Part shown: in pieces, positions 954-34,204 of the stretch
How positions within the stretch are numbered: position 1 is the first letter of the stretch
How the letters are laid out: each line of letters opens with the position of its first letter
Assembly (NCBI GenBank): GCA_031213475.1
Contig: JARUPZ010000021.1
Location: 3,493,545 to 3,557,544 of the forward strand
From: Nereocystis luetkeana
Lineage: Eukaryota > Sar > Phaeophyceae > Laminariales > Laminariaceae
Length of the DNA: 64,000 nt
Direction of reading: 5' to 3'
Notes under the pieces: model-generated
The model's input: the letters and a program-made list of their open reading frames with translations, nothing else
What the model was told of the DNA's origin: nothing
The model's database searches: none
Made by a program: the position numbers and the translations under genes

Positions 954-1010
954 CTTGGTGAGCTTCACTTTACGCAGGGTGGCTTGCATCTTCTCGCGAT
1001 CGGGACGGAC
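954..1010 (-). CDS. Exon 16: last confident exon
   Basis: 57 nt between TTCGGCAG| and ACCAAG|GTAAGC, phase 0. It encodes VRPDREKMQATLRKVKLTK. The donor is strong, so at least one more exon is expected downstream. Candidates are an AG at 888-889, which reads eight codons to a stop, or the one at 48-49. Confidence 0.65.
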
Positions 1011-1836
1011 CTGCCGAAAAAATCGGAGCACGCAGTGCGAGAGGCATAAGGAATATGCCTTAGATCAAGAAAAAAAAAAAAAAACACCCCGCGCGGCCAC
1101 TTCGTCTCCTGCTCGAAACAATACACAATCGAACGAAAGGAAAATTTCAGCCTCTGCAATCAACACGTACGACGTCGCTGATGGGGAAGACGGGGGTAGG
1201 CAGGGTCGGCGAGAGCATGGGCCATCAGCAGAACTCACAAACTATTCGAGGCCATGGTTGGTACCCACTGCGTACAGGACCGACATCACTCCCGCATACA
1301 TTGGTTGATCGGGTTTCGGGTCAGGGTAGGGTCAAAAGAGGTACACGGCGGTAGGTGGCCATTCTTGAGGGACCCTTGTGCGCGTTCGAATTTGGACGTC
1401 CCTGAAATACATACCTGGTCGTACGCATCTACGTCTTTCATGAGAGTTGGTGCCGGCCTCTTACAGTCAGTACAGTGGTGGGCAAACATGGTTGGCAGAT
1501 ACTTGAGGTCCCTTTTATACCGTTTTCCCTTATATTAGGGGACTAAGACGATCAATGCCTACCTGTGGTGGTGTTGTACCTGTAGTTCTATTCGTGACGT
1601 ACACAGTAAACCTCAACCATGCCATCGAGTACGCTGGTCGACCCCACTCTCCTCGCCGCAACACGATCCACAGATCTATACTATTAATACCGCAGGTGCC
1701 TACAATCTTGTGTACTGGTCTGTACTGGTGCCAGACACCAGGTAATGCACAAGGCCCCCATTGGGAGTCGGGGATTTGGAAGAGAGGGGGAAAGGGAGAG
1801 TCGTACGAGTAGCCGGTGTTATGATGTTTTTGTTGA

Positions 1837-1887
<51 letters not shown>

Positions 1888-4800
1888 GGTTGACCTCACA
1901 CCGACAGGATCAGGTGCCCATGGAGACAGCTACGGGGGGGGGGGGGCATCCCTCCAGGTAGCTCGAATATAGACGGCGAGCAAAACCGAAGGAAAAATCA
2001 CTGCGCACTGCCCATGTCTAGGTCAACAAGGGGCAACACAGCCCGCCATCGACACCCGCCACCCACCCGTCTCCCGCATCTACCTTCTCCGTCATGAGCG
2101 TTCTGAGCCTTCGCATCTCCTTCATCGTCCAGACGACGGCTCTCTAAGCCGGCAAGACTCTGCCCCCCCCCCCCCCCTCCGAAAAATCGCCTTTTCCATT
2201 TTTTATAACTGGCCAAGCTTCGACAGACAAAATAGTCCAGAAATCTACATTATACATGATGCTGGAAAGGTCCTAAACTCGGAGGACTTCACCTAACCGT
2301 TAAAAAAAAATGCCGATAAAAGGGGCCAAAAGACTGTTCCCGAAGAATTCGGTTAAAACCTTGAACCCAGCTTGGTTGGGTTTCTCGCGGTCTGTTACCT
2401 ATATAAAAAATGACCCCAATCCCTAGAATCTTCCTGCTAAGAAGACTTGACCCAACCCAAGAAAACCTCAACAAGTTTAGGACTGTTAGGACCGCAGTCC
2501 CGTTCGGGGGGGGAACCACTCGAACTCCCAAGTGTTATAGTTCCTCAAAACGGGACCGCCGTCCTCCCAAGAGGGTCAATTAACTGAGAAGTGGCGTTAT
2601 GGCTCACTTTTTGCCCTAACCCCAGGAGGGTTGGGGTCATTTTCACATAGGAAACAGACCACAAGAAGCAAACCCTACCAAACTGGGTCCAATTAAAAAC
2701 TGATCGCAAACACTTACGCAAATGCACATTTTACATACCAGGTAAATACAAGGTACTGACGAGGCTGCATTACGGTGGACTCCATTAAACAGGACCTACG
2801 GCACACACAAAAACGTCTATCTTCCTCTAGTTCTACCAACAATGTTTGGTCCTGTTTACTATGGCCCCCCGTAATAGACTAAACCCGTGGATTAAACCCG
2901 AACCCTAACCATGAGCAAAAAAATGAAACCCTAACCGCGAGCGTCTGTCCCAGGAAGGTTCCGAGAAAGACGCGGTGACGTTTTTTTTTCGTGCACGTCC
3001 GACAGATCATCGACTTGAACTTAGCGATCCAGATATTCCCGTGCGGACAGAAGGTTCCCTGATCTGATCTGCAATTTCTATTTGGTCACGTATTTTCGGG
3101 GTCGGACCTTCGAAGCGCGCAACATCTCAAAACAACAGGTTAAGATCAAGATGTGTAGATCGTAATTCAACTGTCCGACGTGTGGACGTATGTGTATGTG
3201 TATACTGTCGGCCGTGGTGTCTAAGCTGGATCAAGTCATAAAAATGTACCGCCCAGCTCGCCATCCCCGCCACCCCTCCCCGTGACCGAAAACATTCAAG
3301 CCCAGCGAACTAATCAATCAGCACCAGGCAACTAACGCACCTGCTGTCCGCCGGCCTCTCCACCGTATTCCGCCACTCCTTGCACGGAAGACGCCGACGA
3401 AAATCCAGAAGCCCTTGCCCCCAGCTGCTGCTGCTGCAACTGCATCTGGCGCTGCTGCTGCAGCTGCAGCTGGTGTTGTTGCTGCTGCTGCTGTTGCATC
3501 TGCTGCTGCTGCTGCTGCCGGTACAGGGCCTGCTGGAGCAGGTAGGATTCCCGGTCAGCGATTTTCCAGGCCCTCCGACACCTCGCCTCCTGTTCACGAG
3601 AGACCGAGAGATTCCACGCGTCATACAGGTGATGAGTTAACTCCCCCGTCCCTCATATTACCTCAACACCGGCAAGACACGTGCACATGGGCTCTATCTT
3701 CTACGGATATCTCCCTGTAGCTCACCCCCGGTGAACACGTGTAGATGAGCTATACCTCTCACAGCTCACATCGTTCTTTTCGCATATATTTTCCCATCAC
3801 GGAAGGGGGGTGAAGACTTTTTATCGCGACGCCTGTGCAAAACAATTGTCACTCTCATCGAGACATTCACGGATGCGATGCGGTGCCATGTGACAGCGGG
3901 CCGGGGGGGAGGGGGGGGGGGGGAAGCGTCCCTTGTCGTGTCAGGGTAGAAAAACGCGGCCCCGGCCCCTCCCTCTCGGGGACATTTGTTTTTTTTCTTG
4001 TTCAGGACATACCACGACCCCCAACACCAAAAACATCAGCACCATCTTCCCAACACCACCAACATTACCGAACCCCTCAACACTGCCTGGTGCACGCCGT
4101 AACAAACACCAACATCACCAATATCACGCTTTCTGCACCAACACCAAAACAACACTCCTCAAACCACGAACATACATACAGCACCTACAACATCATCACC
4201 GACGCATTACCGTATCACGCCAGTGGCAAGACAACACACACCCCCTCGTACCACCTTTTCGAGCCGATTTATCCCGCGACAACCTGGGCGATGCAAACAC
4301 CGCGCGATGCGTCTACGGAAATATCTCGTCGAGCTGTGTCCAACCGCGATAGTCGCCCTTTTCGTTGTTTTTGTTCCCCCCTCCGTGTGCTTTGAAGAAA
4401 ACCGCGTAAAAAAATGTTCTCGGAGAGTGTGCTATCTCTCGTGCTACCATGTACCAACCATGTCCAGACATATAGAGACGGTTTCACTCATACTATTACG
4501 GGGGACAATAGTAAATAGAACCGAATATTGTTCGTAAAAAAAGGATAATATATACCTGGTAGGGTTTTGTGTCTACGGTAGGTCCTGACTACTATGGCCC
4601 CCCGTAATATGAAAAGAACAAAAAAAATCCTTGCATTTTCGGGCAGAGCGGTATACGGCAAACACCAACCCCAACACCACAGGCGCACCGCCACCAACAC
4701 CAACACCGGCAGCATGGTCACACAAACGCGATGACAAGTCGACAGAACCACCACCGACATCGCCACCACCAAGTACCACTACTACCGCAATACCAACCTT

Positions 4801-7800
4801 TTACCCACGTCAACAAATTATCATCAATGAACATGCCGACACCAACGACACCTAGGTCAATACCAACAATCGCACATATCACGACCAAAAACAACGAAAC
4901 CACCTCCAACAACAACACCAACACCGAAACCAGCACCAACACCAACACCAACCCAAGCATCACGAACATCGACACCACCGACGACAACGACCGCCCAATA
5001 TCGATCAGTACAAACACTGACGCCGAAAACGCCGGCATCTACGCCAGGAAGCCAGGAGCGACCCCGTCACGGATACCATCAACAGCAACCGCAAAACCAC
5101 CAACACCACCATCCACACACCAACGCCAGCAACAGCGACACCACCGACACCAACACCACCACCGACACCAACACCACCACCAACAAAAAACACCACCGAC
5201 ACCAGCACCACCCAAAAACAACACCAACTACCCGAACCCACACCGCGACCAACCCCATGTCCCGACATGACCACCAACACCACTCTTCGGCATTCGCATC
5301 GTTTTACAGCAAAACTGCACCCACGGCGCGCGGACAAAGCACGTGGACCTATACTCGGATAAGTTTGGCAGTCGGAAAAGGGTCAAACACGGTCGACACC
5401 TTTGCCCTGCACAGGGGTGGGGGGGGGGCACCATGCAACCGCGCACCGCCCCAACGCGCACCCCTTACGCCCCTCGCTCCCTCCTTTCCTCCCCCCCGCC
5501 GGACGATAAGGCGTTTCTCACCTCCACACGCATGTTTTTCAGCTCGTCCCTCGCCCTCAGCTTCTCGATCCTCTTGGCCTCCTTGAAAGCCTCGCGCTCT
5601 TCCGCCTGCCGCCTCCTCCGCTCCTCGCTCTCCCTGCCAGAAACGAGAAAAGGATGGGAGGGTAAACAGAAGCGAGGAAGGAAGGAAGGAAGGAAGGAAG
5701 GAAGAAAAGAAGGAAGGAAGGAAGGAAGGAAGGAAGGAAGGGAGGAAGGAAGGAAGGAAGGAGAAGGGTTTGTCAGCACTCCCTCTCCCTCTCCCTCTCT
5801 CTCTCGCCCTCCTTCTCTCCCTCTGCTCCCACGTCATCAATAGCACCACCACTGCACCAACAGCAACACCAACATGATACTCCGAAAAACGCCGACAAAG
5901 CAATAAAGAACCACACCTGGAATACACCAACAACAACCAACACCAACGCCGAACAACACAGTTCCACCGCCCCTGCCCCGCTGAGGCTAAGCCAGCCGTC
6001 GTGGACCCAATATAATCCGAGGCCAAGCTCGTACCTGGCCGCGACCTGCCACAGCCGCTCCTGCTCCTGATGTCTGATCGCAAGCTCCCTGTTAACCATA
6101 AGCCAGCCAGACAGCCGCCCAAGCCACCCCCGTCGCAGCAGCAGCAGCAGCAGCCACAGCAGCAGCCGCAGCAGCAGCCGCAGCAGCAGCAGCAAGCACA
6201 CGAAGTCACACCCGAAGCAAAGCCCGGGAAAGGAGAGAGGGGAAATAGAAAGCACGTCAGTAAGGTCGGCAGTAAATGTGTTACTATCACAGCCTCTCCA
6301 AGAGACAGCGCGATCAACGAGCACTACAGACCAAAACACACCCCGGGTTTCAACACACACGCGCAAGGCGTTTCGGTAGCCGGGGGCTATCGGGAGCAGC
6401 TAGAGTGCGTAGGGGGTATAAGGCGGTGGGGCTCTAGGGGGGAGTGTGAGATAACCTTGAGCATCGCCTAGCTTCCTCTGCGACAGACCATGAATATCTG
6501 CGGCGGAGGAAAACACCAAGCGCGAAATGACTGCCGCGTGTGATTGCAAAATCGACCAAAGTATCACACGGTGTGAAAATGGAACAACGCGAAACGTTCA
6601 CGTATCGCGCCGAATTGCCACAACCCGAACGCAACATCGCGTGCAACCGCTACACGGCGAAACGCCTACCGCATGCAACCGCCACACAGCAAAACGCCTC
6701 GAAAAGTACTCGGCATACCCGGTACACCGCATGAACCAGCTCACAACGCGGCGCGCAAGCCCGAATGTTTGCGAAGAGCCGTCTCGACGAGACACCGAAT
6801 GTACCGCGTGTAGCTACTGCAGCGGCATGATGCCCCCCACGAAAAAATCCTCAACACAAAACCTCCACCGTATGCCACTGCGGTCACCGCTGAAAAAATA
6901 TATATATATGATGGAAAGCTTTTATAGCTGCCACAGCGCGAACCTCTCATCAAGATTATACACCGCGGGAAGGAAGAATAAACTACCCCAACCCGCAGAG
7001 AGTCCACGCGCAGCAGTACCGCCTGCGGCTTGTAACGAGCAACTGCGTGACGTGCCTACCGTCTTCACCCCTTGCAGTACTGAAAAATAGTGTGCCACAC
7101 TATTATTAGTTCCACCTTACAGCATATCGGGGGGTCATAGTAAAGAGGACCAAATATTGTCAGTGAAAAAGGGTAACTACATACAAGGTAGGTTTTTGTG
7201 TTTACCGTCGGTCCTATTTACTATGGCCCACCGTCATAGTGTGTACCAAAAAATAGTTGCAGTTCGGAAGGGGTAACAACCGTTTTAGGACTGGAGCCCC
7301 GTTTCGGGGGACCATAGCAACTAGGACCAAATACTGTACCTGGTAGGTGAAAAATGCGAAATATATGGGTTTTTGTGTTTACCGTAGGCCCAATTTACGT
7401 ACCGTACCGTACAGCAGGTCCTATTTATTATGGTCCCCCGCAATAGGCAGTTTTCCCCCCAAAACGGGACTTCAGTACTAAAAGGATTGGCAGGGTGTAC
7501 TTGCAAAACGCCAAGCCCCGATCGTATATAACTAGCCGCCCGCATACACTTGCCAGAATTGAACTATTGGTATCCCTCTTCCCTTTTTGGTTCGTGATTT
7601 TTTCGATTCTGGTTTCGATTTTTCGACGTCGAGTTGGTTTTTTCCATCCTGTCTATATCTTCCGGCTACGTAGTATATTGGTCTTCTCGGTTTCTGTGGC
7701 GACTTGTACAGCGTACCGCATGTATCTGATACGTACGTTCGCGGACCTCACTTCAATATTTTTTGTCCGAGGTGTAGATGTGCTTCAGTCATCATGTATA

Positions 7801-10800
7801 CTATTATTTGCTTGTTTTATTACTATTAACACCAAGGTATTTCTTCCACTCCAGAGTTATCGGAGCCTGTCCTGCGACCACGGATTGCATTGTATTGTGG
7901 CGATGAGTTAGTGTGAGAACAACAACAACAACACCAACACCAACACCAACACCACCACCACCACCAACAGCAACACACACACACCGACCGCTCGTGGAAC
8001 AGCTGCACTGAGGCGTGAAAAAAAAAATCGAGACCGCGAGCATCAAAACATCTACCACAGCGGGTGACGTTTCCGAGTCATTGTACGGTAAAGGTGCAGG
8101 GAGCACCTAATTTTTTCTGAAGTCCCTCACTCGACCTTAACGCAGCTCCACACCTCCTCCCAGCAAAATAACTCTGAGACACGCTAATGGTGGCGTGCGA
8201 TCCGATAGATACTCCCAAAGCCCCAAGTGTAATTAGGACAATATCGAAGAAAAAAAAAATATATATATATGCGATCGTATACTCTTTTGTGTATTTTTAA
8301 CAAAACGTTGGGGTTGTAATAAAAAACCTTTTTCGGACCGCAGTCCCCTTCGGGGAACAAACTCCCTCAAATTATGTAGCAAAACTGTCCCCAAACCGGG
8401 ACTGCAGTCCTAAAAGAGTTGGGGAGCCGCCAAAGTCAGTTCGAAATAACGAGGCAACCAAAGTGTTATCTCTTCCACCGCGCGAAGCGTCTACGGCTCG
8501 ACGATCGTAGCTTCCCACGGGGGCGAAACATCTAGAGCACGTAATCGACACGCTGCGTGAAGGCGTGCGCCCGTTCGGCAACACAGCGGGTAAGGGGGAA
8601 AACGGGGCGGGGCATCGGTATTGGCCGGCATGTAAAGAAATGGCTTACCTTTGCCTCCCGGCCTCCTGCTCCTGCGCCAGCTTCATCAGGTGCCGGGCAC
8701 GAGCGTTTTCCTGAAGGGTTTGGTCGGGCAGTCGTTGAATCGGTCCGTCGATCGGCAGTTCGGTCGGGTCGGCCCATACACATTTCGGGCGGTATTTCCG
8801 TCAGAGACTAAGCCGGTCGGGTACGTAGGTTAGTCGGCCGGTACGATGAGAACCATGATGTTCTTGACAACAACGAAAAAAACAACGACAAAAAAACAAC
8901 ACCACACACAACACATAAACACAACACACAACACACAACACACAACAACAACAACAACACGCTCGTCGGGACGAGGTATGGAACCCCAGCAGCAACAGCG
9001 GTGCGCTCCTGCAGCCCACGAACGCTAGCGGCGGCACCAGCACCGGACCCCGACGCCACTGGGGGGAAACGCCTTGGCAGACAGCCTTGACAGAGTGACA
9101 GCTTGACCGAGTGATGTATCGACAGACTGACTTACCACACTACAGAACGACCGACAAAGTACGAGCATCGAACACTTTTTGCTGCCGAACTTCTTCAAAC
9201 GAATTTCGTCTTTACGCTTTGCATAATATATTTACCCGCATCTGAACTCATCAAGACCAACCGACACATCGACCGACCAGATCGACCGACTATTACGGGG
9301 GACCCATAGTTAATAGGACCCAATATTTGCAGTAAAAATGCTTAAATATATAGGTTTTTATGTATACCATAGGCCCCCTCAACCATGGTCCCCCGTAATA
9401 AACGCACCGACCGACTGGCGCCAAACCAAAAAGGTGGGAAAATCGGCCCGCCTGCCCGTGGTCTCTTCCCTGCCTCACCTCCGTACGCCGCTTGACCTCC
9501 GCCACAACATTCCCCTCGGCCTCTGTCAAAGGCGCCACGACCTGCTCCTGGAGACGCGGGATCATTTCCTCCCACCGCGGCTGTTTCCCGCTCTGCGAAC
9601 TGCGTAAATACAGACGAGGGTATTTTGATAAAGAAAAAAGTAAAATAACAAAAAAAAAAAATGAAAAAATTAAAAGTACGTGGTGAGATCGAAAAAACTG
9701 CAAGCCCCCTAAACACACATTTACCAGCTTTAACGTGATGAGAAAGGAGTACAGGGTCGATAAGTAGGACGTAAATCACACTATTAATGGTAGACAATCA
9801 GAACCAGGATCACATTCCAAAATGCATCAAAACAATAAGGCCTCATTCATAACTGCATGACTTGTGTAGCGCACATCAAGCCGTGTTATTACACCTCAGG
9901 GGTTTCCACTGTTGGGCCCGAAAATTATCACCGAGGGGGCTCCTCAGTCTATTTTGGTCAGAAACCTTGCCGTGGTGTCATGGTGCTTTGTATCGGACTT
10001 CGCTTTCAGCTGTTGTCTCTAAAAAAATCGGGTGAGGGGTGAGGAGTAGAGATGGGCACCGAATGACATTTTCGACAAACCGAAAACCGGATACATAGGA
10101 GGCTTCACTCATTGAAAAAAGAAGGAACCGGTTGGACAGATTGCTTTCTGGCGGCTTGAACCGGTTAACCGAAAACCGGTTCAATCGGTTTTTGCGTGGG
10201 AAAACATCCATAACATTGCAAAGCAGGTAGGGTTTTCATTGAGTGGCACCTTGTGGTGAGGATTAGAGCTCCTGGCCTGAGAACAGATGGGTGCTCGTGC
10301 ACGTCTCGAGCTGGGCCAACCCTAAAACAGATTTTCCTTCGATCGGCGGTTTTGCAGCCATTTCCAAATATTATTACTCCAAATTTAAAGTCATACCGAA
10401 TAAGTCTCGTCACACACGTGGATATTGCCGTGCAAAAGCCTATACGAAACCGCCATAAGCTTGTACAGTGGATGACGCTGATTCTCGGTGTGAACATTCC
10501 TTGAGGCATGGCGAAACGATCGATATCCTCACTATCGCCTAATTCGTTATCTGTCAAGGGATAGTGCGTTTATGATCCGCAATACATAGTCAAGATGATA
10601 CGATGAGACACAAAATCCCGGATTCCCAGCCCAGTTTTTCGTTTTGGTATCTGAAATTTTGACACGTTATTTTAATATTTCTAAAAAAATCTTCCCGGCA
10701 GTACATTTTTTTTTTTTTTTTTTTACCACTTTAGTCTGAAAAACAAAATTCAATTCTACTAATATCGGGCTAGCTCACGACAAAAATAAAAATGAAGAAA

Positions 10801-12201: not shown

Positions 12202-12232
<31 letters not shown>

Positions 12233-19450: not shown

Positions 19451-19482
<32 letters not shown>

Positions 19483-22400: not shown

Positions 22401-23847
22401 CGCCGGCACGGCGCGGCAAAAAAACAGCACAACTTTCCGTGGTGGTTAACCGAACGACTCCACGCCACCTACAAATAACGTCTGCTCTTTTCAACCCACG
22501 TAAGCGACGCCCAGCAGCAATAGATACCAGTTCAGGAAAGAGAACGACAACCACGCCCCCAACACCGCCGCCGCAGCACCAGCCTCACCTGGGCATGAGA
22601 AGACGCCCTCGACCCCGAATTTTGCCCAAATCCGCTAGGCAGGGATCCACGGCCGCGACCGCCACCCCGTCCACGACCGCGGCCACGACCACCACCCCGA
22701 CCGCCACCCCGACCACACGCGGCCGCCCCACCTCCCACCCATTGCAACTGCTGCTGATGAACTCCGTTAGGCCCCGACGACGTCACTGACAGGGAAGACT
22801 GTGACGGCATCTGCGCCATGCGCTGGGCCGCGGCCTGCTGCAACATCCTCGGAGAGACAAGCCTCCTCTCGCCCGCCGCCGCCCACCCAGCGCCGCCACT
22901 GCCACCACCCTGCCTCGGGGAAGCGACCAAGACTCCTAGACCCTGCTGCCCGCCCCCTCCCCCCGATTGCCTCGGCGAATGCGGGGGGAAAGAGTGGCCT
23001 TGCTCGGGGAAGGGATCGGCCGAGTTCGAAGCATCAGAGGCAGACGAACCCCCCGCGGCGGCGATGGCGGCCGCAGCTGCCGCAGCTACAGCGGCGCTGC
23101 CCGCCTCCGAGAGGTTGTTGAGGCCGAAGCTTTGACCGCCGCTACCGCTGCTGCTGCCCGCCTGCGTGGGTAGGGGGCGGGGGGGGGGGGGTTGAGCACG
23201 GGAAGGTTACAAGAAGAGTTTCCACGAACGGTTGGCCACGTGCGATAGCACAGGCAGACGTATGTCGGTAAAAACCACGTTGAATATCCCACAGCACGGA
23301 CCACGTGCGTACTCTGGAAGCGGGAACAGGTCTGGTCTTTTTTACGGGTGGAGGGGGGGTTCAGCGAAACCGCACCTTCATACTACATCGCTGCAAGTAC
23401 ACACGAGGCTGCCACTCGCCGAAAGTGGGTAGTTGCTGCTACGACCCTGCTGAAAAAATACCAGGTATATACAAGTGGGCACCACACCAGCTTTCCTGGC
23501 TGTGGGGGGGGTACGCGGGCACGGCACGAAACCACGCAAAAACGGAACAAAAAAAAACAAGCAACACAAAACGAAACACCCGGGGCAAGCGGAGTATCTC
23601 GCTTGTGCGGACACCGGCCTCCTCTTGTGGACACCCAACTACAACCCAAGCCGAATAAAACCAAACCCAACCCAGATGCAAGGCAAGAGCTATCTTTACG
23701 CTTCCGAACACGTGGTGCCAAATAACCAGAATGGGCACGTCTCGTGACCAAGCCAACAACTAGCCTACAGCCAGCCAAAGCGCAGGAACCATCGTTATCT
23801 CTTCAACTCGTTCCGTGCCACACCCCAGTGTAGGCAGCGGTACTCGG

Positions 23848-23880
<33 letters not shown>

Positions 23881-26800
23881 CGCCACACATTGGTTTTGAG
23901 TCCCAGACAGGACGCGGCGGGGGGTCTACTATATAAAATCAATCAAGTATAATTTCAAAATAGAAAACGTCGTTCTTTGACTTTGTCCAGAAATATCGCC
24001 ATTCAACAGTATTACGGGGGTCCATAGTAATTAGGACCAAATTTTGTTAGTAAAAAAAGCGAAATACCAGGTACCAGGGTGTAAAGGTTTTTTGCATACA
24101 CTCTCCGTTCGACCCCTTAAGAAACTGCTCTCCTGCTGTGGAGGCAAAACACTTGGAAATAAATCATATGTAGGTGTTTCTGTACAGTGCAGCACTATGT
24201 CAAGGGGTTAACCGTTTAGAACCGCAGTCCCGTTTTGGGGACGAACCACTAAAATTTCAAGTAGTTTGTCCCCAAAACGGGACTGCAGTACTGAAGTTAA
24301 GGAAGAAGAAAAATTGCATTTAGAGTCAGGTACAGGTACATGTCTTCGTACGGGAAGTAGATCTAGTGGGAACAAGCCCTCGTTATATACTCACATCGAG
24401 GGTCCGAACGAGGCTTACATTATAGGCCAGATTGGTAGAGAACGGCACCCACATTTCCGGCCCAAACAACTTGCAACATAGTTAGGGGGGAAAACCAGAG
24501 GGGAAATAAGTGTAACCTAAAAAGGGTTATATATGACCTGCAGAGGCGGGAGCCTCTTCACCCTTTTCGCCACGCCTTCGTCTTTCCGACTCTTATTCTA
24601 GCGCTTACCGAGTGGGAGGTGTTAAACCGGCTGCCGTAGCCTCCACCGCGAAACCGCGAGAACGAAACAGCCGGAAGGGGGGTAGCGGCCGACGCAGCGG
24701 CAGCAGCAGCGACCCCGGACGCGGATGCGGACGCAGCTGGCGAAGGAGGGGATCCATACGCCGGCGGGTACACCTCGAAACCGCTGCCGACTCTCCTGTG
24801 AACGCCCACCTCCGGCCTCAGCGCAGGGGGGCGCGAGACGAGAGGGTTTGGCCCTACAGCCCCGACGACGCCCCCACTCATCACACCCGGGGACTGGCGG
24901 CCCCTCTTGTAGACCGCCTCTCTCTCACCAAGAGCTCCATCGCCTCCAACCCCGCCGCCGCCACTACCACCCCCTGGTGATATAATGGCCGAAGGGCGCC
25001 AAGTCTGCCCAGGTACCGACGGCGGGCCTTCTCGCACGCTCTCGGCACCCCTCGGGATCGTCTCCGACGCGCGACCCGCGCCCGTCGCGCTTGCGCCTCC
25101 TTCCGCAACGCCTCCGGTCTCGGAGAAGAAGGAAAAGTTCGCCGCCACCCGCGAAGCCAGCTCATCCTCACGCCGACGCAAGGCGATCGCATCGTGCGCC
25201 TTTTGCGATTGCTGCGCCAGAGAAATCTGTCCCACCGGCGACGACGACGGGGGGGGCGCCACCACCCCCGCCGTCGCCGCGACCGCTCCACGGCCGAACG
25301 AGCCGCCGCCTACCCCTGCCCGAGGTGCCGACGATCCAAAGCCTGTCACTCCCGGCTCTGGCCGGAAAGGCCCGATCGACGGCCCGGCCATCGAATCGGA
25401 CGTCCTCGGAACGGAAGAGGCGCCAAGCCTCCCTTTCGTCAACGAAGCGGCCAAAGCCTGCACCGCGTCGCCCCTTGTGGGAGAATTCGATGCCGGCGTG
25501 TCATCGTCGCTGTGTAGCGCGGCGTGCGGGCCGGGGCTAAGCTCTCTGCCCAAGCCTGCCGTTCCTCTCATTCGCGAGAAACTGCCGAGGGCTTCGCTGC
25601 CGGGCGGAAAGCTGGGAGCGCTCGTTGCCGTCACCGCAGGTCCCACCTCACGCGCACCGGCTCCTCCCTCCGCCCGACCCCTCTGCTGGATTCCGTCAAC
25701 CGCTTGCTCCGACGAAGAAGTTAATGTGTCCGGCCTGACTGCACCGGGTTTAGCAGACGCGGTCGCCGTCTCCGTATGGGAGACCACCGCGTCTCCGTTG
25801 GCTCCCAACCGGGCGCTACGACCGGTTTCGGCCCCGATCTCTGCCTCCTCGCCAGGCAAAAGCCTGGAACAGACGCCCACCCCAGCCTCAAGCTCTCGCG
25901 TTTGAGCGTGTGCGGGTGCTACACCCGGCCGCTCGAGCGAGGACGCCTCGCCGATGGAAAGCCCATCAGTGGGACCCGCCCGTGGGGCTAGGGCACCGAC
26001 AGGTTCGACACCCGACGAGTGCGAAGCTGCTGCTGCTGCAGCGTCATCGTCGCAAGAGCCGCTCACATCCGAAGGGGAGGTCTCCCGCATCGTCGGGACC
26101 TTCGAGGAAGGCTGTCCCGACGAAGACTGCGCCGGCGTAGGCGCCTCTCCTGCAAACCACATAGATCCGCGTAGGCCAGCCGGCGGCTGTCCCTGCCGCC
26201 CCGCGGAGGCACCCGCGGCGGCACCCGGAGCGCCGCGGGCCACCCCCCGCCCTGCGCCTTCGATGTGTCCGGCATTCTTCATCCCATGTTTTCCCGCAAG
26301 CTGCTTTCCGTCTGAAGAAGCCTCGTCACCCACAGCGACCTCCGCTCCGAAAGCACCTTCTGCTGTCGCACGTTCATCCGGGAACCGTTGTCCGGCCTCC
26401 GACCGCCCGCTCTCTACAGGTGCGGTTGCTGCTCCAGTCCGAGCCGCACCTCCAGCACTTACGCCACCCTTTGCGCCCGAGCTTTCGCTGGCACTGTCTC
26501 GCACCTGGCCACCGCTCCCGGGCCCCTCGACAAGCGGCACTCGCACATCCACATCCATCGCCTGAACCCCTATAGGGTGCGGCATCGTTCGGTCAGCCCC
26601 TCGCAGGGCACCCTCATTACCCCCGGATGATCTCGCCCCCGGCAAAGTCGACCCCCCTATCGGGGGCGGGCTTACCGTTCTCGCCCTTGGCCCGCGCTGC
26701 GCCACAGCCGGCCCTTCACCCGCCTTTCCAGCCGCACCCCCGTTCCCCATCGATGAAGCCGCCGCTTCCGATAGATGCGACGGTTTGATCGTTTCCGCGC

Positions 26801-29800
26801 GCGGCGGTTCAACGCGCGAAACATTTCTCCGTTCTTTACCCCTAGCCCCTCCCGACCCTCCCTGATGGGAGGGAGTCGCTGACGCTCCAGCTACCGCCGG
26901 AGTGTTACTCGACTTCGCTGGCACCGGTCTCCGCGGCAAGCTAGCCGGTTGGTCCGGTGTCAACGCTCGCTCTATGCGCGACTGACCAGCTCCGTCTGTG
27001 CTCATCGGCCACGCGCTACCTTCCTCTGAAAAAGCCCGGTCGTTTCGCATCGACCCCATCTCGTTCGTTCGAACGCCCCCCACCAACTGTGATTTTTTCC
27101 CAGCGGTTTCCTCCACAGCGGCTTTCGAAGGCATCCCACGCGCTTTGCCCGGCGGAGTTGCTTCTCGAGGCGCCGAGCGTTTCGGCCCAGCTACCACACC
27201 GTCGCGCGCCGCCGAGGGCCCTCCCTTCCCCACGATTGATCGCCTGACATCCGTCGGCTTGCTCCTTCGGTCGGTAGCTGACGCGGCACCGGCGACGGCG
27301 GCGACGGCGCTGGCGGCGGTCGAAGTTGGGGCAGATGAGTCACGGGACACCGGGACGCCACGTCCCGCACGACCAGCCTCTTCGTGAGAATACGAGGTCG
27401 GCGTCGCAGAAGAGGTGCTCGAAGCAGGAGAGGAAGCTACTAGCGAGGCGGGGGTGGCCGTGGTCGCCTCCGACGCAACCGCTGATTCCCTCGTCGCCTT
27501 TGTAGCCTGCCCGGTGGGCGGTCGAGCCCCACGTGGCGCCGAACGTAGCGGTGCCATCGCGCCCCCCTTCGCCGACGACAATGACCGCTCAGGGGAAGCT
27601 CCCGACCCACGCGCTGCTGGCCGATACCCTGTCAGATTCCCTGCCGTCTGTGGTGGCGGCGACTCTCGTACAGCACCGGGCTTTCCCGTCGAACTCACAA
27701 CCGCAGGCCTGCGTGTTGCCGCCACCGCCACCGCCGCTGCCGCCGCCGGGGACATTGCCGCCGGAGACAACGACGACGCCGCCGAGTTCCCCACTGCCGA
27801 CAGACGTGATGATGTTGTCGCTACAGAACCTGCACCTTTGCCCGTTACTGTGTGTGCCTTGGTTGGTCCGTCGGCAGGGCGCAGTGACGCCCGCGGTACG
27901 GGGGGGTTCTTCGTTGCTTGCGGCGCCAACACGATACCTTCACCGCCGCCTCTTGCCGTAGGCGCTCCCGCCCTGCTTGATCCATCCACCGGGGGCCTTT
28001 GAGACGACACCGGCGGCGGCGGCGGAGGTGGTGGTTTTGTCGCTGCCCTGCCAACTTTAGACATTCCCTGGGCCCCACTAGCCCTCACTGACGGCGGAAT
28101 TGACGATGACGATGACGAGGAAGAGGGGGAACTGATTTCCGGAGCGCGTCCGGGTGCGGCGCCTGGTGGAGGAGCATGTGGTGAGGGACAGATGGTCGGT
28201 AGGGGCGGACAGTCGGGGGGGTCGTGGCTACTAAGCGGCTGCGAACATGCAGGATGAGTTTCTGTTTTCGCAACATGCACGTCGGCGTTGTTCGTGTCGA
28301 CAACGTGCGCGTTCACACAAAAGTTATGATGCTCAATATATACGTGTACGTATACGACATGATATAGATGTACCAGACGATTGCGATGAAAAAACAAGAA
28401 AAGTACTGAGTATGGGTTTGGCACCAGAGGCGTTGGGCGGTGGGGTAAAGGGTGGTCAACGGCAGTTTCACGGCTACCTCGTGCTGTACTAGGCGGAGAT
28501 GGAAGGGAGCACATCGAAGTTGAAGAAACTTTACCATCAGACTACGGTACATGGCAGCACTGATGTAATAGTAACGCTGATCGGCTGAGGTGCGGAAACA
28601 ATGAATGACGAAATAACGAAAAAACGAACAATACGAAGTAAAGTGCAAGACAGCAGCAGCAGCAACAGCAGTAGTTAGGTACCGCCGTAGTGGACGGCGT
28701 TCACAGGAAGAGAAAAATCCCATTAGCACCGGACGCACGCAAAAAGTCCTCAACGCGTTGACTGCTGTGTCGCCCACTCCCTGCCACTACCTACGTACAG
28801 CAGCCTCCGCAAGCCATCACGGAGTACGGCGAAGCAAATACTCCTATTTTGAAAACAGCAGTTGCTTTTTTGGCCACAACATACAACGGACAGCACGAAA
28901 CAAAGCCTGAAGCAACAACCGAAATTCAAAAAAAAAGAACATACCAGCAGGTAGACCTGGTGATCGACGGACGGCGTGTGACGGCAGAAAAAACTATTGC
29001 TCCACAAGAAGAGCAAGTTCGATGAAATAATATATGACTCACTGTCAGTATAAAAAAATAGGTTATTTCCAGCAGGAACGGACAGGACTCAAGTTCGCAA
29101 CACGACGGCGGGGTTCTCGCGGCTCGTAGGCAAAAAAACAAATCAGGAACAACTTGGGCACCACCCGTTTCGTGAAGAGCAAAGCCGCCGAGGCGTAGAT
29201 TGGGCTGGTGGAAGCCAGCGGCTGTCGACGACCTCCCTTGCAACGCTGGAAGGTAGAGCTATCATAGACCATGAGCATCTCCGGCGTATAAAACGGTTGA
29301 CGAGAACAGGCAGGCAGGGAGGGAGGCCGGCAGCAGAGAGGCCAGAGCGCCAGAGCCGAAATTCCGCCGACGAACAGAGACAGAAAATTCGAAAATTCAA
29401 ACAAACCAAAACAGCAACGCAGGAAACAGAAAACACGGACTATATACGGGCTCGTCAATCCAAACGTACTACTACGCTCGTAGGACGTATTGCAAATATA
29501 CCTGCCGCACTACCGCCCTCCCCTTTCTCCTTCTCCTTCTCCGCCACCGCCGACGCCTTCAATACCGCTTCCGCCTCCCGACCAATTTCACCCCCAGCCC
29601 CCACCCATCGTTCAACTCCAACTGGAGCCGCGCCGACACTCTCCGCGGCGGCCGAGGGACGAGGGGCTTGGCCGGCGACGTCCTCCCCGCCGCCAGCACC
29701 GAGAGGTCTACCCCCTCCACTCGGACGAATGATTCCGCCGCGCAACGGGGACGGAGTCCTTGCTGCCGCTGCTGCTGTCGCTGCTGCTACTACTGCAGAT

Positions 29801-31288
29801 TTAGCAAGTGCGTCCCTTTCCCCTCCATCATTCCGCTGCAAATGGGAACACTCTTCCTGGCGGGGCGCGCCCTCTTGCCTGTCGACCCTTGCCTCCCGAC
29901 AGGCCTGTTGTCCCCTGGGGGCACCGACGCGGGTGGCGGTAGCGGCGGCGGCCGCGGCCGCGGCGGCCGAGGCGATGCTAGCGCTGCCCGGTTCATCAGC
30001 GCCGGGAGCATGCAGCGATGAAGGTGGGGGAGCAGCGGCGGCGTCGGCGACAGCAGTGATATTGCTCCCGCTGCCGCTGCCGCGGCTGCTTGCCGTGGTG
30101 GTGGTGGTGGTGGTGGTGGAGGCAGCGGCGGCGGTAGTGGCGGTGGTTTCCGCCGTAGTCGACGCCGACATGGAGTAAGGGGTGGGGCGGTCGGGAGAAG
30201 CGCCCCCAGCCTCTTTGAGAGGGGCCGTGGCGGTCAACGTCGGTGACGAGGGCAAGGCCGGCCGTGGTTGGGACCGTTGCTGGCCTGGACCCTGCCGGGG
30301 GTGGTTGTCACTAAAGGGGGCAACGGCAACCGCGCCTGCTGTGAAGTATTACAGGGCAAACACAACAACAAAAAAGACAGAAAGATACGTACAAAATGAA
30401 AGAGAAAACAAGAAAAAACGTTCGGTGCGATAGCTATCACAAAGTACTGCATTTTTTATTTGTTTTTTTAGAAGCAGTTTCAAAAGTAATAGTCTAGGCT
30501 CTATGATATGATATGATCTGACATTTGATATCATGGGCGGGGGCGTACGCTGGTTGTGCTTGCGTGTGGAAGTCGACCCGGGTAGAACGCGTTGCCGAGA
30601 GGTTCGGGAAGAAAATACGGGGAAGAAATAGCGCCCGGTGACCGCAGGGAGGCGATGCAACGAGGGCAATTTGCCCGCGAGCCTGCAACGCGAGGTTGCT
30701 CAGGCCTGGTGCCACATGTACGGTCCCCATGTCTCGAATAAGTAAGCCCCCCCGCGCTACGCGGAAAGTCAGGGTTTAAGTTTTCAAGTGAAATAGCTCC
30801 TGCGCCGTTGAAAAACCACGGGACCATCCAAATTCTATCTCGCCTTTGCGCACCACGCGCAGCGAAGCGCCCTCCCAAGCAAACAAAAACAACCACCCGG
30901 CGAGTGCGTCGGTCTTGAAGTAGCGATAGTGCCGCAAGACGGGCTACCGCTACCAGCCACCGCCACCAGCTGGAGCGCCGTCTTTTTTCTTACCTTGGCA
31001 TGCACCTCCACGCGGAGTAGACCCCTCTGCAACATTGCTGCTGCTGCTGCTGGTGCTGCTGCCGCCCGTCCCGCTCCTGCTGTCTATTTTTCCAGTTTTT
31101 TCGGCCAGGACCGCCGAGGGGCCACGATCACGCGCTTCCTCGCTACTTGAGGTCGACCCCGCTAACACCTTTGATGCGGAGGGAGTGCTTGTCTTGGTTT
31201 TTTCCATCTCTGCTGGCGGCGGGGCCGCCACTTTGAGGCCGTCTACAGGAGCCTCTGCTGCTCCCCGCCCCTCGCGACCACTCTCCAT
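954..31288 (-). CDS. Giant DDT-WHIM-PHD chromatin protein, 16-exon model (3' end open)
   Basis: Sixteen exons chain in one frame: 31288-30994, 30338-29502, 28162-24609, 23161-22589, 22149-20527, 19812-19327, 18624-13360, 12734-12578, 12165-11943, 9599-9479, 8710-8649, 6088-6035, 5633-5522, 3589-3341, 2143-2084 and 1010-954. All junctions are GT-AG and every donor phase matches the next acceptor, giving 4,576 codons without a stop. Domain order is DDT (about 2219-2311), WHIM1-like helix (2421-2456), PHD finger (2486-2526), two AT-hooks (about 2918 and 3012), a folded island (about 3995-4211) and a coiled-coil tail. The family is known for accessory subunits that partner ISWI ATPases and for plant DDT-PHD regulators, so a nuclear chromatin role is inferred. 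The start has a stop codon in frame just upstream. The weakest joins are exon 2 to 3 and exon 7 to 8. Two separate genes, with a second start at 28,064, cannot be excluded. Confidence 0.78.
1011..2083 (-). other. Intron 15
   Basis: 1.07 kb. A GTT trinucleotide run at 1,829-1,888 produces artefactual poly-Val and poly-Leu frames. An A-run at 1,070-1,084 and scattered short shadow frames make up the rest. Confidence 0.55.
1829..1888. repeat. (GTT)n microsatellite
   Basis: About 20 near-perfect triplets in intron 15. They explain the Val/Leu/Cys homopolymer frames at this point. Confidence 0.9.
2084..2143 (-). CDS. Exon 15: short basic exon
   Basis: 60 nt between CCGGCTTAG| and GAGAAG|GTAGAT, phase 0. 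It encodes RAVVWTMKEMRRLRTLMTEK. It is skippable without a frame change. Accepted on splice sites, phase and helical character. Confidence 0.65.
2483..2580. mobile_element. Family B hairpin MITE
   Basis: Left arm TTAGGACCGCAGTCCCGTTC and right arm AACGGGACCGCCGTCC form a long foldback; diverged. Confidence 0.65.
2769..2877 (-). mobile_element. Family A MITE copy
   Basis: Ends read ATTACGGTGGACTCC and GGCCCCCCGTAATAG, matching the terminal inverted repeat ATTACGGGGGACCATAG of this family. The interior AGGACCTACGG...TTTGGTCCTGTTTACTATGG is the complement-orientation core. Confidence 0.75.
3341..3589 (-). CDS. Exon 14: poly-Gln exon
   Basis: 83 codons between GTGAACAG| and CAGCAG|GTGCGT, phase 0 at both ends. 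It starts EARCRRAWKIADRESYLLQQ, continuing the coiled coil, then gives about 40 residues dominated by Gln with Met, His and Leu, and ends in a Ser/Gly linker. CAG triplets make the tract prone to length change. Poly-Gln next to a coiled coil is common in transcription and chromatin proteins; its role here is inferred. Confidence 0.75.
4016..5265. repeat. CA-only low-complexity tract (ACCAAC/CACCGA)
   Basis: Most of this stretch on the plus strand is built from A and C in ACC, AAC, CACCAC and GACACC words, with very little T or G. It is interrupted by the MITE at 4,494-4,610 and by less biased sequence before about 4,630. It lies in intron 13, so the pre-mRNA carries GGU/UGU repeats. Long open frames on both strands here are composition artefacts. 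Confidence 0.75.
4494..4610 (+). mobile_element. Family A MITE copy
   Basis: Terminal inverted repeats TATTACGGGGGAC and GGCCCCCCGTAATA, 117 bp. The core shows AACCGAATATTG and GTCTACGGTAGGTCC. Confidence 0.8.
5522..5633 (-). CDS. Exon 13: Glu/Arg coiled coil
   Basis: 112 nt between TCTGGCAG| and GTGGAG|GTGAGA, entering in phase 2 and leaving in phase 0. It encodes ESEERRRRQAEEREAFKEAK and RIEKLRARDELKNMRVE. Strong splice sites and a regular charged heptad pattern support it as a real exon. Confidence 0.78.
5634..6034 (-). other. Intron 12, CCTT microsatellite before the acceptor
   Basis: 401 bp. The tract at 5,678-5,766 is an AAGG-type run, reading CCTT on the transcribed strand. It ends about 44 bp before the TTTCTGGCAG acceptor and so extends the pyrimidine-rich zone to over 120 bases. 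Confidence 0.7.
5678..5766. repeat. (GGAA)n microsatellite
   Basis: Tandem tetranucleotide run with a few interruptions, in intron 12, followed by CCCTCT repeats at about 5,780-5,805. Confidence 0.9.
6035..6088 (-). CDS. Exon 12: short coiled-coil exon
   Basis: 54 nt between GTTAACAG| and GCGGCCAG|GTACGA. It encodes ELAIRHQEQERLWQVAA and is phase 2 at both ends, so skipping it would keep the frame. An alternative cassette exon is possible. Confidence 0.7.
6139..6200. repeat. CAG/CCG triplet tract
   Basis: CAGCAG and CCGCAG triplets about 50 bp upstream (gene sense) of the exon 12 acceptor. Probably intronic because the exon 12 frame and acceptor start after it. Confidence 0.75.
7124..7241 (+). 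mobile_element. Family A MITE copy
   Basis: Ends TCGGGGGGTCATAGTAAAG and TTTACTATGGCCCACCGTCA, diverged. Core AGGACCAAATATTG and GTTTACCGTCGGTCC. Confidence 0.7.
7271..7487. mobile_element. Family B hairpin MITE split by family A
   Basis: Left arm AGGACTGGAGCCCCGTTTCG at 7,288; right arm CAAAACGGGACTTCAGTACT at about 7,457. A family A element separates them. Confidence 0.7.
7311..7446 (+). mobile_element. Family A MITE inserted in a hairpin MITE
   Basis: ACCATAGCAACTAGGACC at the left and TATTATGGTCCCCCGCAATAG at the right. The copy sits inside the family B element 7,271-7,487, whose two arms flank it. Confidence 0.75.
7836..7933 (+). repeat. Dispersed repeat D, copy 1
   Basis: GGTATTTCTTCCACTCCAG through GTGAGAACAACAACA is about 90% identical by eye to 10,978-11,068. 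Unknown family; both copies are intronic and in the same orientation. Confidence 0.7.
8322..8428. mobile_element. Family B hairpin MITE
   Basis: Arms CGGACCGCAGTCCCCTTCGG and CCAAACCGGGACTGCAGTCC, about 100 bp. Confidence 0.75.
8649..8710 (-). CDS. Exon 11: short coiled-coil exon
   Basis: 62 nt between CCCTTCAG| and CAAAG|GTAAGC. It encodes ENARARHLMKLAQEQEAGRQ and leaves in phase 2. The exon is too short to stand alone. It is accepted because both splice sites are strong and the phase and helix character fit. Confidence 0.72.
8711..9478 (-). other. Intron 10
   Basis: 768 bp with a family A MITE at 9,291-9,401 and an ACAACA-rich tract at 8,865-8,960. Nothing else is recognised. Confidence 0.6.
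9291..9401 (+). mobile_element. Family A MITE copy
   Basis: Well-preserved ends TATTACGGGGGACCCATAG and CATGGTCCCCCGTAATA, with TA on both sides. Core ATATAGGTTTTTATGTATACC. Confidence 0.85.
9479..9599 (-). CDS. Exon 10: coiled coil
   Basis: 121 nt between TTTACGCAG| and ACGGAG|GTGAGG, entering in phase 2 and leaving in phase 0. It encodes SGKQPRWEEMIPRLQEQVV followed by EAEGNVVAEVKRRTE. The helical heptad character continues that of exon 9. The two alternative frames are also open, but only this one fits both neighbours. Confidence 0.75.
10165..10557 (-). CDS. Orphan 130-codon intronic ORF, unknown
   Basis: An open frame inside intron 9, same strand as the host gene. Composition is balanced and protein-like, with Trp, Cys and a stretch FRPG-like near RPGALILTTRCHSM, quite unlike the homopolymer-rich exons around it. 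No family was recognised. It could be a remnant of a DNA element or a captured gene fragment. The ends of such an element were not found, and splice signals around it are not convincing. Confidence 0.25.
   Translation of the reverse strand: MTDNELGDSEDIDRFAMPQGMFTPRISVIHCTSLWRFRIGFCTAISTCVTRLIRYDFKFGVIIFGNGCKTADRRKICFRVGPARDVHEHPSVLRPGALILTTRCHSMKTLPALQCYGCFPTQKPIEPVFG
10978..11068 (+). repeat. Dispersed repeat D, copy 2
   Basis: Second copy of the repeat at 7,836-7,933. It shares CCTGTCCTGCGACCACGGA and the ACAACA tail. Confidence 0.7.
11174..11292 (-). mobile_element. Family A MITE copy
   Basis: Ends ATTACGGGGGACCATAGC and ACTATGGTCCCCCGTAGT. The core is in the opposite orientation to the 9,291 copy. 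Confidence 0.85.
11573..11641 (+). repeat. Dispersed 65-bp repeat, copy 1
   Basis: CGTGGTCAATGGCCAAGTGA and ACAAATGAG match 20,225-20,289 in intron 5. Confidence 0.6.
11943..12165 (-). CDS. Exon 9: coiled coil
   Basis: 223 nt, entering in phase 1 and leaving in phase 2 at TTGCGAC|GTGAGG. It encodes EGEQLILRKRQARADRFKAD and continues to EKLTENFARRQEVA, an amphipathic helical stretch. The frame would stop (TGA) within the donor if unspliced, which marks the exon end. The phase fits exon 10 (AC|T gives Thr). Confidence 0.78.
12166..12577 (-). other. Intron 8, trinucleotide repeats next to the acceptor
   Basis: 412 bp. Bases 12,177-12,236 hold CAG and CAT triplet runs ending about 11 bp before the CCTTTATAG acceptor. 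The interior is rich in GGGGAAA on the plus strand. No mobile element. Confidence 0.65.
12177..12236. repeat. CAG/CAT triplet microsatellite
   Basis: CAG triplets, then CAT, then CAG again, just upstream (gene sense) of the exon 9 acceptor. Confidence 0.85.
12578..12734 (-). CDS. Exon 8: charged helix
   Basis: 157 nt, open in one frame, beginning SRERDVWVTESELTPRAL and ending in a basic helix (RRREALRQRRREDKKR). Donor GCGCG|GTGAGC gives phase 1, matching exon 9. The Trp-containing start may close the folded island of exon 7, and the rest begins the coiled-coil tail. Confidence 0.7.
12735..13359 (-). other. Intron 7
   Basis: 625 bp. The acceptor AAAAAAG| at 12,735 has a poor pyrimidine tract but gives phase 0 and an open, protein-like exon. 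A C-run lies at 12,777-12,788. No mobile element is seen. Confidence 0.55.
13360..18624 (-). CDS. Exon 7: PHD finger, AT-hooks, 1,755 codons
   Basis: The exon starts CPWFEKEIDF after TTGGCCAG|. Codons 30-70 form a C4HC3 PHD finger (C-x2-C-x8-C-x2-C-x4-H-x2-C-x13-C-x2-C; core CCDNCPRAFHTKC, then WSCWEC), lying at 18,415-18,537. After it come WVVGGYVF, a long GR repeat, and two AT-hooks centred near 17,227 (RPRGRPRKIRP) and 16,945 (RPRGRPRKVRP), which bind AT-rich minor grooves in known proteins. Ala/Lys/Glu-rich coiled coil follows. A folded island sits at about 15,800-15,360 (NPLEYVNRYAKAVAY...). A C-terminal island (14,010-13,360) holds SSAELAVHIRSLHVVIDAQL, resembling the helix after the PHD in plant DDT-PHD proteins. 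Donor GGGGAAG|GTGAGC at 13,360, phase 0. Long open frames on the other strand are shadows. Confidence 0.88.
18625..19326 (-). other. Intron 6
   Basis: 702 bp from GTGAAC to TTGGCCAG. It includes a 13-bp G run near 18,741 and AG-rich tracts. No repeat family or gene is seen. Confidence 0.6.
19327..19812 (-). CDS. Exon 6: end of DDT, acidic stretch, WHIM1-like helix
   Basis: 162 codons, phase 0. It begins VTWPAYFVEFVQTVEEQ, completing the DDT domain. Next is a Ser/Asp-rich segment, an RRxR basic patch, a Gly-Ser linker and a run of about 25 acidic residues. It ends with YHLLPLEMKVQALEYLVDRA, which matches the WHIM1 pattern (hydrophobic-x-L-P-x-E-x-K-x-x-x-L-x-x-L-x-D). In this family WHIM motifs contact linker DNA and the remodeller ATPase. 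Donor ATGGAG|GTGAAC. Confidence 0.85.
19813..20526 (-). other. Intron 5 with duplicated acceptor region
   Basis: 714 bp. Bases 19,931-19,990 are a diverged copy of 19,791-19,850, which spans the exon 6 acceptor, so a second CACACACAG acceptor lies 140 bp upstream of the real one. A 65-bp dispersed repeat at 20,225-20,289 is shared with intron 9. Confidence 0.7.
20225..20289 (+). repeat. Dispersed 65-bp repeat, copy 2
   Basis: CGTGGTCAATGGTCAAATGA and ACAAATGAG. Paired with 11,573-11,641. Confidence 0.6.
20527..22149 (-). CDS. Exon 5: coiled coil and main part of the DDT domain
   Basis: 541 codons, phase 0 at both ends. The first half is acidic and Ser-rich. Then comes a Glu/Lys/Ala coiled coil (EKAEEKEKAKVIVEAEVAER). 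The last 76 residues form a DDT fold: LGAYAMVRTFSRPCRLTP, then a helix ending in TPLLDAVHCELLRRVCCLLR, then RELDWKYLDQ at the splice. DDT domains are known as three-helix modules of chromatin-remodelling subunits such as BPTF and ACF1. The domain finishes in exon 6 with VTWPAYFVEF, the usual W-P-x-x-F/L ending, which confirms the splice. Confidence 0.85.
22150..22588 (-). other. Intron 4
   Basis: A 439-bp intron with a C-run close to the acceptor. The frame stays open from the C-run into exon 5, so an acceptor at about 22,250 is conceivable. It would need phase 2 and does not fit the phase-0 donor of exon 4, so CTTCAG| at 22,150 was chosen. Confidence 0.6.
22589..23161 (-). CDS. Exon 4: Gly/Ala/Gln-rich with RGG-like block
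   Basis: Phase 0 at both ends (CCACGCAG| at 23,162 and CATGCCCAG|GTGAGG at 22,589), 191 codons. It encodes a Gly-Ser start, a poly-Ala tract, QQ-rich helices around MLQQAAAQRMAQM, and then a GRGGGRG repeat near the C-terminal end. RGG-type blocks commonly bind nucleic acid; that role is inferred. The open frame and both splice sites are seen directly. Confidence 0.75.
24010..24105 (+). mobile_element. Truncated family A MITE
   Basis: The left end TATTACGGGGGTCCATAG and the core are present; the right inverted repeat is missing. Confidence 0.7.
24209..24296. mobile_element. Family B hairpin MITE, well preserved
   Basis: AACCGTTTAGAACCGCAGTC opposite GGGACTGCAGTACTGAAG; the inner arms TTTGGGGAC and GTCCCCAAAA pair over a short loop. 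About 88 bp. Confidence 0.8.
24609..28162 (-). CDS. Exon 3: 1,184-codon Ala/Pro/Ser/Gly-rich region
   Basis: The reading frame is open to the donor CACTCG|GTAAGC at 24,609 (phase 0). It encodes a very long disordered region with poly-Ser, poly-Pro and poly-Ala tracts and scattered RG and SP pairs, typical of scaffold regions of nuclear regulators. The frame is also open upstream to an ATG at 28,514, but that stretch (28,170-28,500) is rich in His, Val and Tyr unlike the rest and looks untranslated or intronic. An internal ATG in good context at 28,064 (MSKVGRAATK) is the fallback start if exons 1 and 2 belong elsewhere. No known domain is recognised. Confidence 0.72.
28163..29501 (-). other. 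Intron 2
   Basis: This is a 1.34-kb gap between the GTATAT donor and the proposed CCACCAG acceptor. It contains only short shadow frames and no listed repeat family. The acceptor was chosen because it is the one AG in the open frame upstream of 28,064 that gives phase 1 and has a C-rich tract before it. Confidence 0.45.
29502..30338 (-). CDS. Exon 2: Ala/Thr/Ser-rich disordered segment
   Basis: The exon is open throughout from TTCACAG| (phase 1) to GCGGCAG|GTATAT (phase 1), 279 codons. It encodes Thr and Ala homopolymers, a Gln/Pro-rich start and a charged end (KEKEKGEGG). Nothing resembles a folded domain. The opposite strand also holds a long open frame, an expected shadow of GC-rich repetitive coding sequence. 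The phase fit on both sides supports membership in the large gene. Confidence 0.6.
30339..30993 (-). other. Intron 1
   Basis: It runs from GTAAGA to a TTCACAG acceptor. It is AT-richer than the exons and shows no ORF with protein-like composition and no member of the MITE or SINE families seen elsewhere. Confidence 0.5.
30994..31288 (-). CDS. Exon 1: start codon and Ser/Gly-rich N-terminus
   Basis: The exon opens with ATG at 31288 (MESGREGRG...) with a TGA in frame a few codons upstream, and ends at CAAG|GTAAGA in phase 1. It encodes 98 residues that are hydrophilic and disordered, with a Ser run near the end. No signal peptide or membrane segment is visible. Phase 1 matches the acceptor at 30,339. 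Assigning it to the large gene rests on phase and strand only. Confidence 0.6.

Positions 31289-34168: not shown

Positions 34169-34204
<36 letters not shown>
33839..34204 (+). mobile_element. tRNA-headed SINE family 1, full copy with poly-A
   Basis: The head carries a perfect A box TGGTTCAAGTGG (33,849-33,860) and a near-perfect B box GGCTTCGAGCCC (33,891-33,902), 30 bp apart, with a T-arm-like stem. An AT-rich spacer and a conserved body follow (GAGAGCGCCTTGCAGCGTG, GTGACCCCGGATCTGAG, AATGAATGGGAT), then about 36 A. Length about 365 bp. Such elements are transcribed by RNA polymerase III and moved by a partner LINE; no LINE was seen here. Confidence 0.88.

Follow-up and report, generated by a model that had tools for sequence, protein, structure and literature searches.

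A very long spliced gene that probably encodes a DDT-PHD accessory subunit of an ISWI-type chromatin remodeller

The window, that is, the whole 64,000-nucleotide stretch of DNA that was analysed, contains a very long and real spliced gene, which runs on the minus strand from position 31,288 to position 954. Manually rebuilt frame by frame, the gene consists of 15 exons that are all bounded by GT-AG sites and all match in phase, and the spliced frame of 13,593 bases encodes 4,531 residues with no stop codon. No stop has been reached by 954, and the donor AAG/GTAAGC at 953 indicates that the gene continues beyond the window. With a score of 7.3, this donor is the highest in the region from 0 to 32 kb, tied with the donor at 8,648. 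The original prediction had described a spliced gene of 16 exons and at least 4,576 residues with strong GT-AG sites and agreeing phases, and it was confirmed in substance with corrections: the long phase-matched chain and its splice sites were recovered, with GT-AG boundaries in 15/15 exons, while the sixteenth exon was not reproduced, and five tail exons shorter than 130 bp (121, 62, 54, 112, and 57 bp) were counted instead of four. As splice sites were picked for keeping phase during the manual rebuild, agreement of phases alone is no test of this model.

Coding signal was therefore judged by scores against controls, using our own Viterbi parser, which combined splice-site weights (generic values set by us) with codon odds and was not trained on the tail. 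Three versions were run: a generic-amino-acid parse, in which synonymous codon preferences came from exons 3, 5, and 7 and amino-acid frequencies were generic; an exons-5-7-composition parse, with codon usage taken from exons 5–7; and a full-gene parse, in which gene starts and ends were modelled, at four settings (two with a stricter and two with a lower intron penalty). The tail (13,300–600) scored well above all controls. In the generic-amino-acid parse it reached 132.1, compared with 46.8 for the opposite strand and 65.5 for the reversed sequence, and none of 60 order-1 Markov sequences exceeded 14.4. In the exons-5-7-composition parse it reached 112.0, compared with 35.9 for the opposite strand, 62.2 for the reversed sequence, and no more than 6.3 for 40 order-2 sequences. 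Because the reversed tail scored about half as high as the real one, the margin over the reversed control is smaller than the margin over the shuffles.

All eight manual tail exons were matched exactly by the generic-amino-acid and full-gene parses, and seven of the eight by the exons-5-7-composition parse. Exon 8 (12578..12734) was exact in the generic-amino-acid parse and at 4/4 full-gene settings, and was given an alternative donor with an end at 12,548 in the exons-5-7-composition parse. Exons 9 (11943..12165), 10 (9479..9599), 11 (8649..8710), 12 (6035..6088), 13 (5522..5633), 14 (3341..3589, with a glutamine-rich run), and 15 (954..1010, followed by the strong donor at 953), all on the minus strand, were exact in all three versions. 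Three extra tail exons called by the generic-amino-acid parse (2143–2084, 1894–1739, and 1528–1415) and one called by the exons-5-7-composition parse (5851–5780) were doubtful and were left out. Introns within the gene also contained two pairs of repeats, 7835–7934 with 10977–11070 (89% identical) and 4500–4609 with 7130–7238 (79% identical).

In the full-gene parse, the minus strand scored 481.9 at the first setting and the plus strand 54.0, and at all four settings the region from the exon 4 acceptor through exon 15 was called as a single gene. Under the low intron penalty the sequence was badly over-split, into 46 or 38 exons; both of these settings were still included in every count out of four. 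Exon 7 (13360..18624, minus strand; 1,755 codons) contains the PHD finger, an RG-rich stretch, two AT-hooks, and two less repetitive stretches. Both of its ends were recovered at 4/4 settings, each of which also removed an intron at 18,101–17,934 in the RG-rich part, and this intron was left out of our gene model. The open reading frame in the exon 7 region is 1,783 codons long, compared with at most 811 in Markov sequences. Exon 6 (19327..19812, minus strand), which carries a TWP motif after the DDT domain, an acidic run, and a WHIM1-like stretch at 19,330–19,437, was recovered exactly at 4/4 settings. For exon 5 (20527..22149, minus strand), which holds the DDT domain, the end at 20,527 was called at 4/4 settings, all with a start at 21,998, while the generic-amino-acid parse gave a start at 22,149, so the start is uncertain; the open reading frame in this region is 598 codons long, compared with at most 555 in Markov sequences.

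The N-terminal half (31,600–22,160) behaved differently in the two scoring schemes. In the generic-amino-acid parse it scored 14.9, compared with 9.8 for the opposite strand, 17.0 for the reversed sequence, and at most 9.4 in 60 Markov sequences, and it thus failed despite the presence of exon 3 in the training set. In the exons-5-7-composition parse it scored 121.2, compared with 24.6, 29.9, and at most 5.7 in 40 sequences; with the same parse, the region from 63.9 to 34 kb, taken as a yardstick, scored 34.8 on one strand and 36.1 on the other. Such a failure followed by a pass would be expected of coding sequence with a biased composition.

Exon 3 (24609..28087, minus strand; 1,159 codons, rich in Ala, Gly, Ser, and Pro) is clearly coding, and is probably joined to the DDT/PHD chain. 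Its frame contains no stops, compared with 9–31 in the other five frames, and the open reading frame in this region spans 1,327 codons, compared with a maximum of 528 among 300 order-2 Markov sequences. The exon 3 end was recovered by the exons-5-7-composition parse and at 2/4 full-gene settings, and its acceptor is uncertain, since both scripts put the start elsewhere. In the regions of exons 1, 2, and 4, open reading frame lengths were within chance in the same order-2 comparison. Exon 1 (30994..31288, minus strand) has a possible ATG start at 31,288 and a strong donor (AAG/GTAAGA); this start and donor were recovered by the exons-5-7-composition parse, and the start was chosen at 0/4 full-gene settings. 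The low-complexity exon 2 (29502..30338, minus strand) has an uncertain acceptor, and its end at 29,502 was recovered by the exons-5-7-composition parse and at 4/4 full-gene settings, each time with a start other than the manual one. The acceptor of exon 4 at 23,161 was recovered by the same parses (22589..23161, minus strand; Gly/Arg-rich end, donor CAG/GTGAGG), and the parsers ended this exon at 22,791 or 22,732, the latter at 4/4 full-gene settings, compared with 22,589 in the manual model. On the basis of the full-gene parses and open reading frame lengths, the chain of exons 5–15 (about 2,800 residues) is firm except for the exon 5 start and the possible short intron in exon 7, and the gene start and several N-terminal junctions are provisional placements.

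An alternative, which is unlikely, is that two genes are present: the first exons would encode a low-complexity protein, and a DDT-PHD gene of its own, with a start in exon 3, 4, or 5, would account for about 2,800–4,150 residues. The chance-level open reading frames of exons 1, 2, and 4 and the weak generic-amino-acid parse of the N-terminal half are consistent with two genes, and so is the splitting of the N-terminal part at 2/4 full-gene settings, with boundaries between 31,243 and 27,134. Gene counts over the four settings were 1, 2, 1, and 3: under the stricter intron penalty, one parse called a single gene from 30,171 and the other called two genes split between 27,940 and 27,134, and under the lower penalty one parse called a single gene and the other three. 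None of the four, however, split the sequence between exon 4 and exon 5, and the exons-5-7-composition parse kept the ATG at 31,288, the ends at 30,994, 29,502, and 24,609, and the acceptor at 23,161 in one phase-matched chain, which far outscored its controls (at most 29.9) but placed the acceptors of exons 2 and 3 and the end of exon 4 elsewhere. A break further downstream, at which the DDT-PHD gene would stop at 13,287 and exons 8–15 would be a gene of their own encoding a charged helical protein, is very improbable. The exon 7 frame does meet a stop 24 codons beyond the donor, and the tail lacks any domain that ties it to remodellers; but the tail chain opens with an acceptor rather than an ATG, although the parser allowed ATG starts, exon 7 was joined to exon 8 at 4/4 full-gene settings, and a strong phase-0 donor lies at 13,359, across which GC content (150 bases) drops from 0.74 to 0.44. 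Support for the join between the DDT/PHD exons and the tail exons is thus strong, and the single-gene reading is based on the phase-matched frame, the scores of the tail exons above controls, the exon 7–8 join, and the drop in GC content.

Two recognisable domains were found in the order DDT, then PHD. The PHD finger (18415..18537, minus strand; residues 2461–2501, in exon 7) is a solid sequence-based identification: the C4-H-C3 ligand pattern is matched, a 101-residue spliced piece matched the Pfam profile with an E-value of 1.4e-6 (28.6 bits, above the cut-off of 24), and the whole frame matched with 8e-5 (23 bits, slightly under that cut-off). Among solved structures compared by sequence, the nearest was the PHD finger of AIRE (1xwh, E 9.7e-10), and 54 distinct solved sequences matched at E <= 0.01, with AIRE, CHD4, and PHF12 at the top and Sp100 also matched. 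Upstream of it, a DDT domain (Pfam PF02791) is probably present at 20614..20754 on the minus strand (residues 2194–2240, in exon 5). It matched with an E-value of 6.1e-4 on a spliced piece (20.3 bits, just below the cut-off of 22) and 0.0052 on the whole frame (17.3 bits). No DDT match was seen in seven scrambled controls, but one of them hit an unrelated family with an E-value of 0.0023, and the DDT E-value by itself would therefore not carry the claim. What carries the call is its place: the TWP motif comes next, on the far side of a phase-0 intron, and the PHD finger after that. Two RGRP AT-hook motifs, KRPRGRPRK (17200..17238) and RPRGRPRKV (16912..16950), both on the minus strand after the PHD finger, were identified by motif scan.

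The original prediction had read a DDT, WHIM1, PHD, and AT-hook order in one frame and had proposed a profile check of the spliced protein. Our check of spliced pieces upheld the PHD finger above its cut-off, the two AT-hooks by motif, and the probable DDT domain just below its cut-off, and it gave WHIM1 no support, as no Pfam match was found after the DDT domain at E <= 10. Profiles in Pfam can miss WHIM motifs, according to the available text of PMC11789628. The scanned pieces gave no match to WSD (WHIM2/WHIM3), and Pfam scans of other pieces, including the island (exons 7–8) that precedes the charged part of the tail, gave only unrelated matches below cut-off. By sequence, the DDT region matched no solved structure at E <= 1, and the island matched only four unrelated ones, from E 0.71 upwards. 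For the DDT exon end and the island, the structure models were poor (mean pLDDT 49.6 and 49.2), and Foldseek found no fold match to either model at E <= 0.001. Searches for relatives in virus and prokaryote collections with the tail, the DDT region (viral_contigs), and the PHD finger (genome_contigs) were unproductive.

Comparisons with known families suggest that the protein is probably a DDT-PHD accessory subunit of ISWI rather than a BPTF or BAZ protein. Like plant DDT-PHD proteins of the DDP/PTM type, it has a DDT domain before a PHD finger and no bromodomain was seen. The W-rich stretches after the PHD finger (approximately residues 3375–3522), the exon 7–8 block, and the PHD finger itself may resemble those proteins, and the island and exon 8 may correspond to their last modules. 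Unlike them, the protein here would be about three times as long, and it carries a charged tail, AT-hook motifs, and inserts that are acidic or RG-rich. BPTF/NURF301 similarly has DDT then PHD in a very large protein, and BAZ/ACF1/WSTF proteins have both domains in common with it. It is nevertheless unlikely that the protein is BPTF/NURF301-like or BAZ-like, with a C-terminal bromodomain encoded outside the window. The C-terminus does lie outside the window, since the frame meets no stop before 954 and a strong donor follows; against this, a second PHD finger and a bromodomain, as in BPTF/NURF301, were absent from the scanned parts, no WAC domain or bromodomain was found in the frames of exons 1–7 and 9 and residues 4187–4455, and the island and exon 8 may point to plant DDT-PHD proteins. 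WAC, an N-terminal feature of BAZ/ACF1 proteins, gave no match in the frames of exons 1–7 at a Pfam E-value of 0.1 or below, and the scanned parts gave no WSD or WHIM1 profile match either. NURF301 migrates at 301 kDa, according to the available text of PMC2705796. In Paramecium, ICOPa/b are also divergent ISWI partners with WHIM motifs barely detected by profiles; as far as the available text of PMC11789628 goes, only a WSD-like motif was detected in them, whereas here DDT and PHD were found and WSD was not.

Most of the unusual length is probably repetitive, unfolded low-complexity sequence: 3,396 of the 4,531 residues are of low complexity (25-residue windows, entropy below 3.0 bits). A coiled coil of 370 residues had been predicted after the island, and this was not supported. 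Residues 4187–4455 form a highly charged stretch that contains 12 Gly or Pro among 269 and shows no heptad hydrophobic periodicity, the observed score being reached by 490/1000 shuffles in a simple script of our own. The helical hydrophobic moment of the tail is likewise ordinary (reached by 262/1000 shuffles). Opposite charges at helical spacing, scored with a similarly simple script, exceeded all 1000 shuffles over residues 4187–4455 as a whole; by part, only residues 4341–4455 stood out (reached by 7/1000), and each of 4187–4240 and 4241–4340 was reached by 183/1000. From sequence, a single charged helix is therefore a reasonable guess for the last 115 residues of this stretch only. No Pfam match and no solved structure at E <= 0.1 was found by sequence for the tail, and NCBIfam gave one unrelated match below cut-off.

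Taken together, the locus is best read as a single long nuclear gene on the minus strand for a DDT-PHD accessory subunit of an ISWI-type remodeller, with a probability of roughly 0.7. The original prediction of one gene for a DDT-PHD remodeller accessory protein thus remains the best-supported reading, based on the PHD finger above and the DDT domain just below their Pfam cut-offs in this order, the matches to AIRE, CHD4, PHF12, and Sp100, and the AT-hooks. AIRE- and CHD4-type PHD fingers read unmethylated H3K4, and the PHD finger here, closest to this type in sequence, may read the tail of H3, probably in the form that lacks K4 methylation. Loose contact with DNA or RNA could be provided by the RG-rich stretch together with the two AT-hooks, histones may be contacted by the acidic run, and the charged C-terminal stretch might act as a stiff spacer or docking arm. 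The DDT region and the helices that follow it would dock on the SLIDE end of the ISWI ATPase, as the SLIDE domain of ISWI factors is the binding partner of the DDT domain (available text of PMC4901127). The extra length would be mostly disordered low-complexity sequence, for which no function need be assumed.

The folded parts, DDT and PHD, belong to a known kind, and extra length alone is weak evidence of a new function. A more ambitious proposal, which we consider doubtful, is a lineage-specific giant DDT-PHD subunit of more than 4,500 residues that would combine a docking module with a charged helical arm and long disordered segments that bind DNA, and thus a remodeller reader and a chromatin scaffold in one polypeptide, in an independently multicellular lineage. 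If the sequence is brown-algal, it would place a DDT-PHD remodeller subunit in a lineage for which the available text of two chromatin papers, PMC13076208 and PMC7784034, names no such proteins; a word search of their main text for DDT, ISWI, and BPTF gave 0 occurrences. The available text of an Ectocarpus paper (PMC3174193) contains 'PHD finger' twice, and no paper that we recognised as describing this long DDT-PHD protein came up among the partial texts covered by our literature search. The gene model supplies exact junctions that can be tested by cDNA.

Several other elements were observed elsewhere in the window, in which Rfam gave 0 matches. A dispersed element of about 350 bases with a poly-A/T tract, SINE-like in appearance, occurs in five copies that are pairwise 92–99% identical (33836–34190, 46021–46363, 46754–47040 of about 290 bases, 50015–50366, and 50568–50917). 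The segment 42741–43865 matches its own reverse complement over 1,147 columns at 79% identity and forms a large fold-back, which carries long frames at 41706–43235 (plus strand) and 43066–43983 (minus strand) with no Pfam match at E <= 0.01. At 53889–54365 on the plus strand, a weak RT_RNaseH match (Pfam 4.2e-4, below cut-off) suggests a likely retrotransposon remnant. Stretches of two plus-strand frames at 59456–60927 may resemble the Mpv17/PMP22 membrane protein family, and the piece joined from them gave no Pfam match. Tandem arrays were located at 38993–40341 (unit of about 43 bases), 57792–58083 (about 40), 60936–61377 (about 22), and 63685–64000 (about 18).
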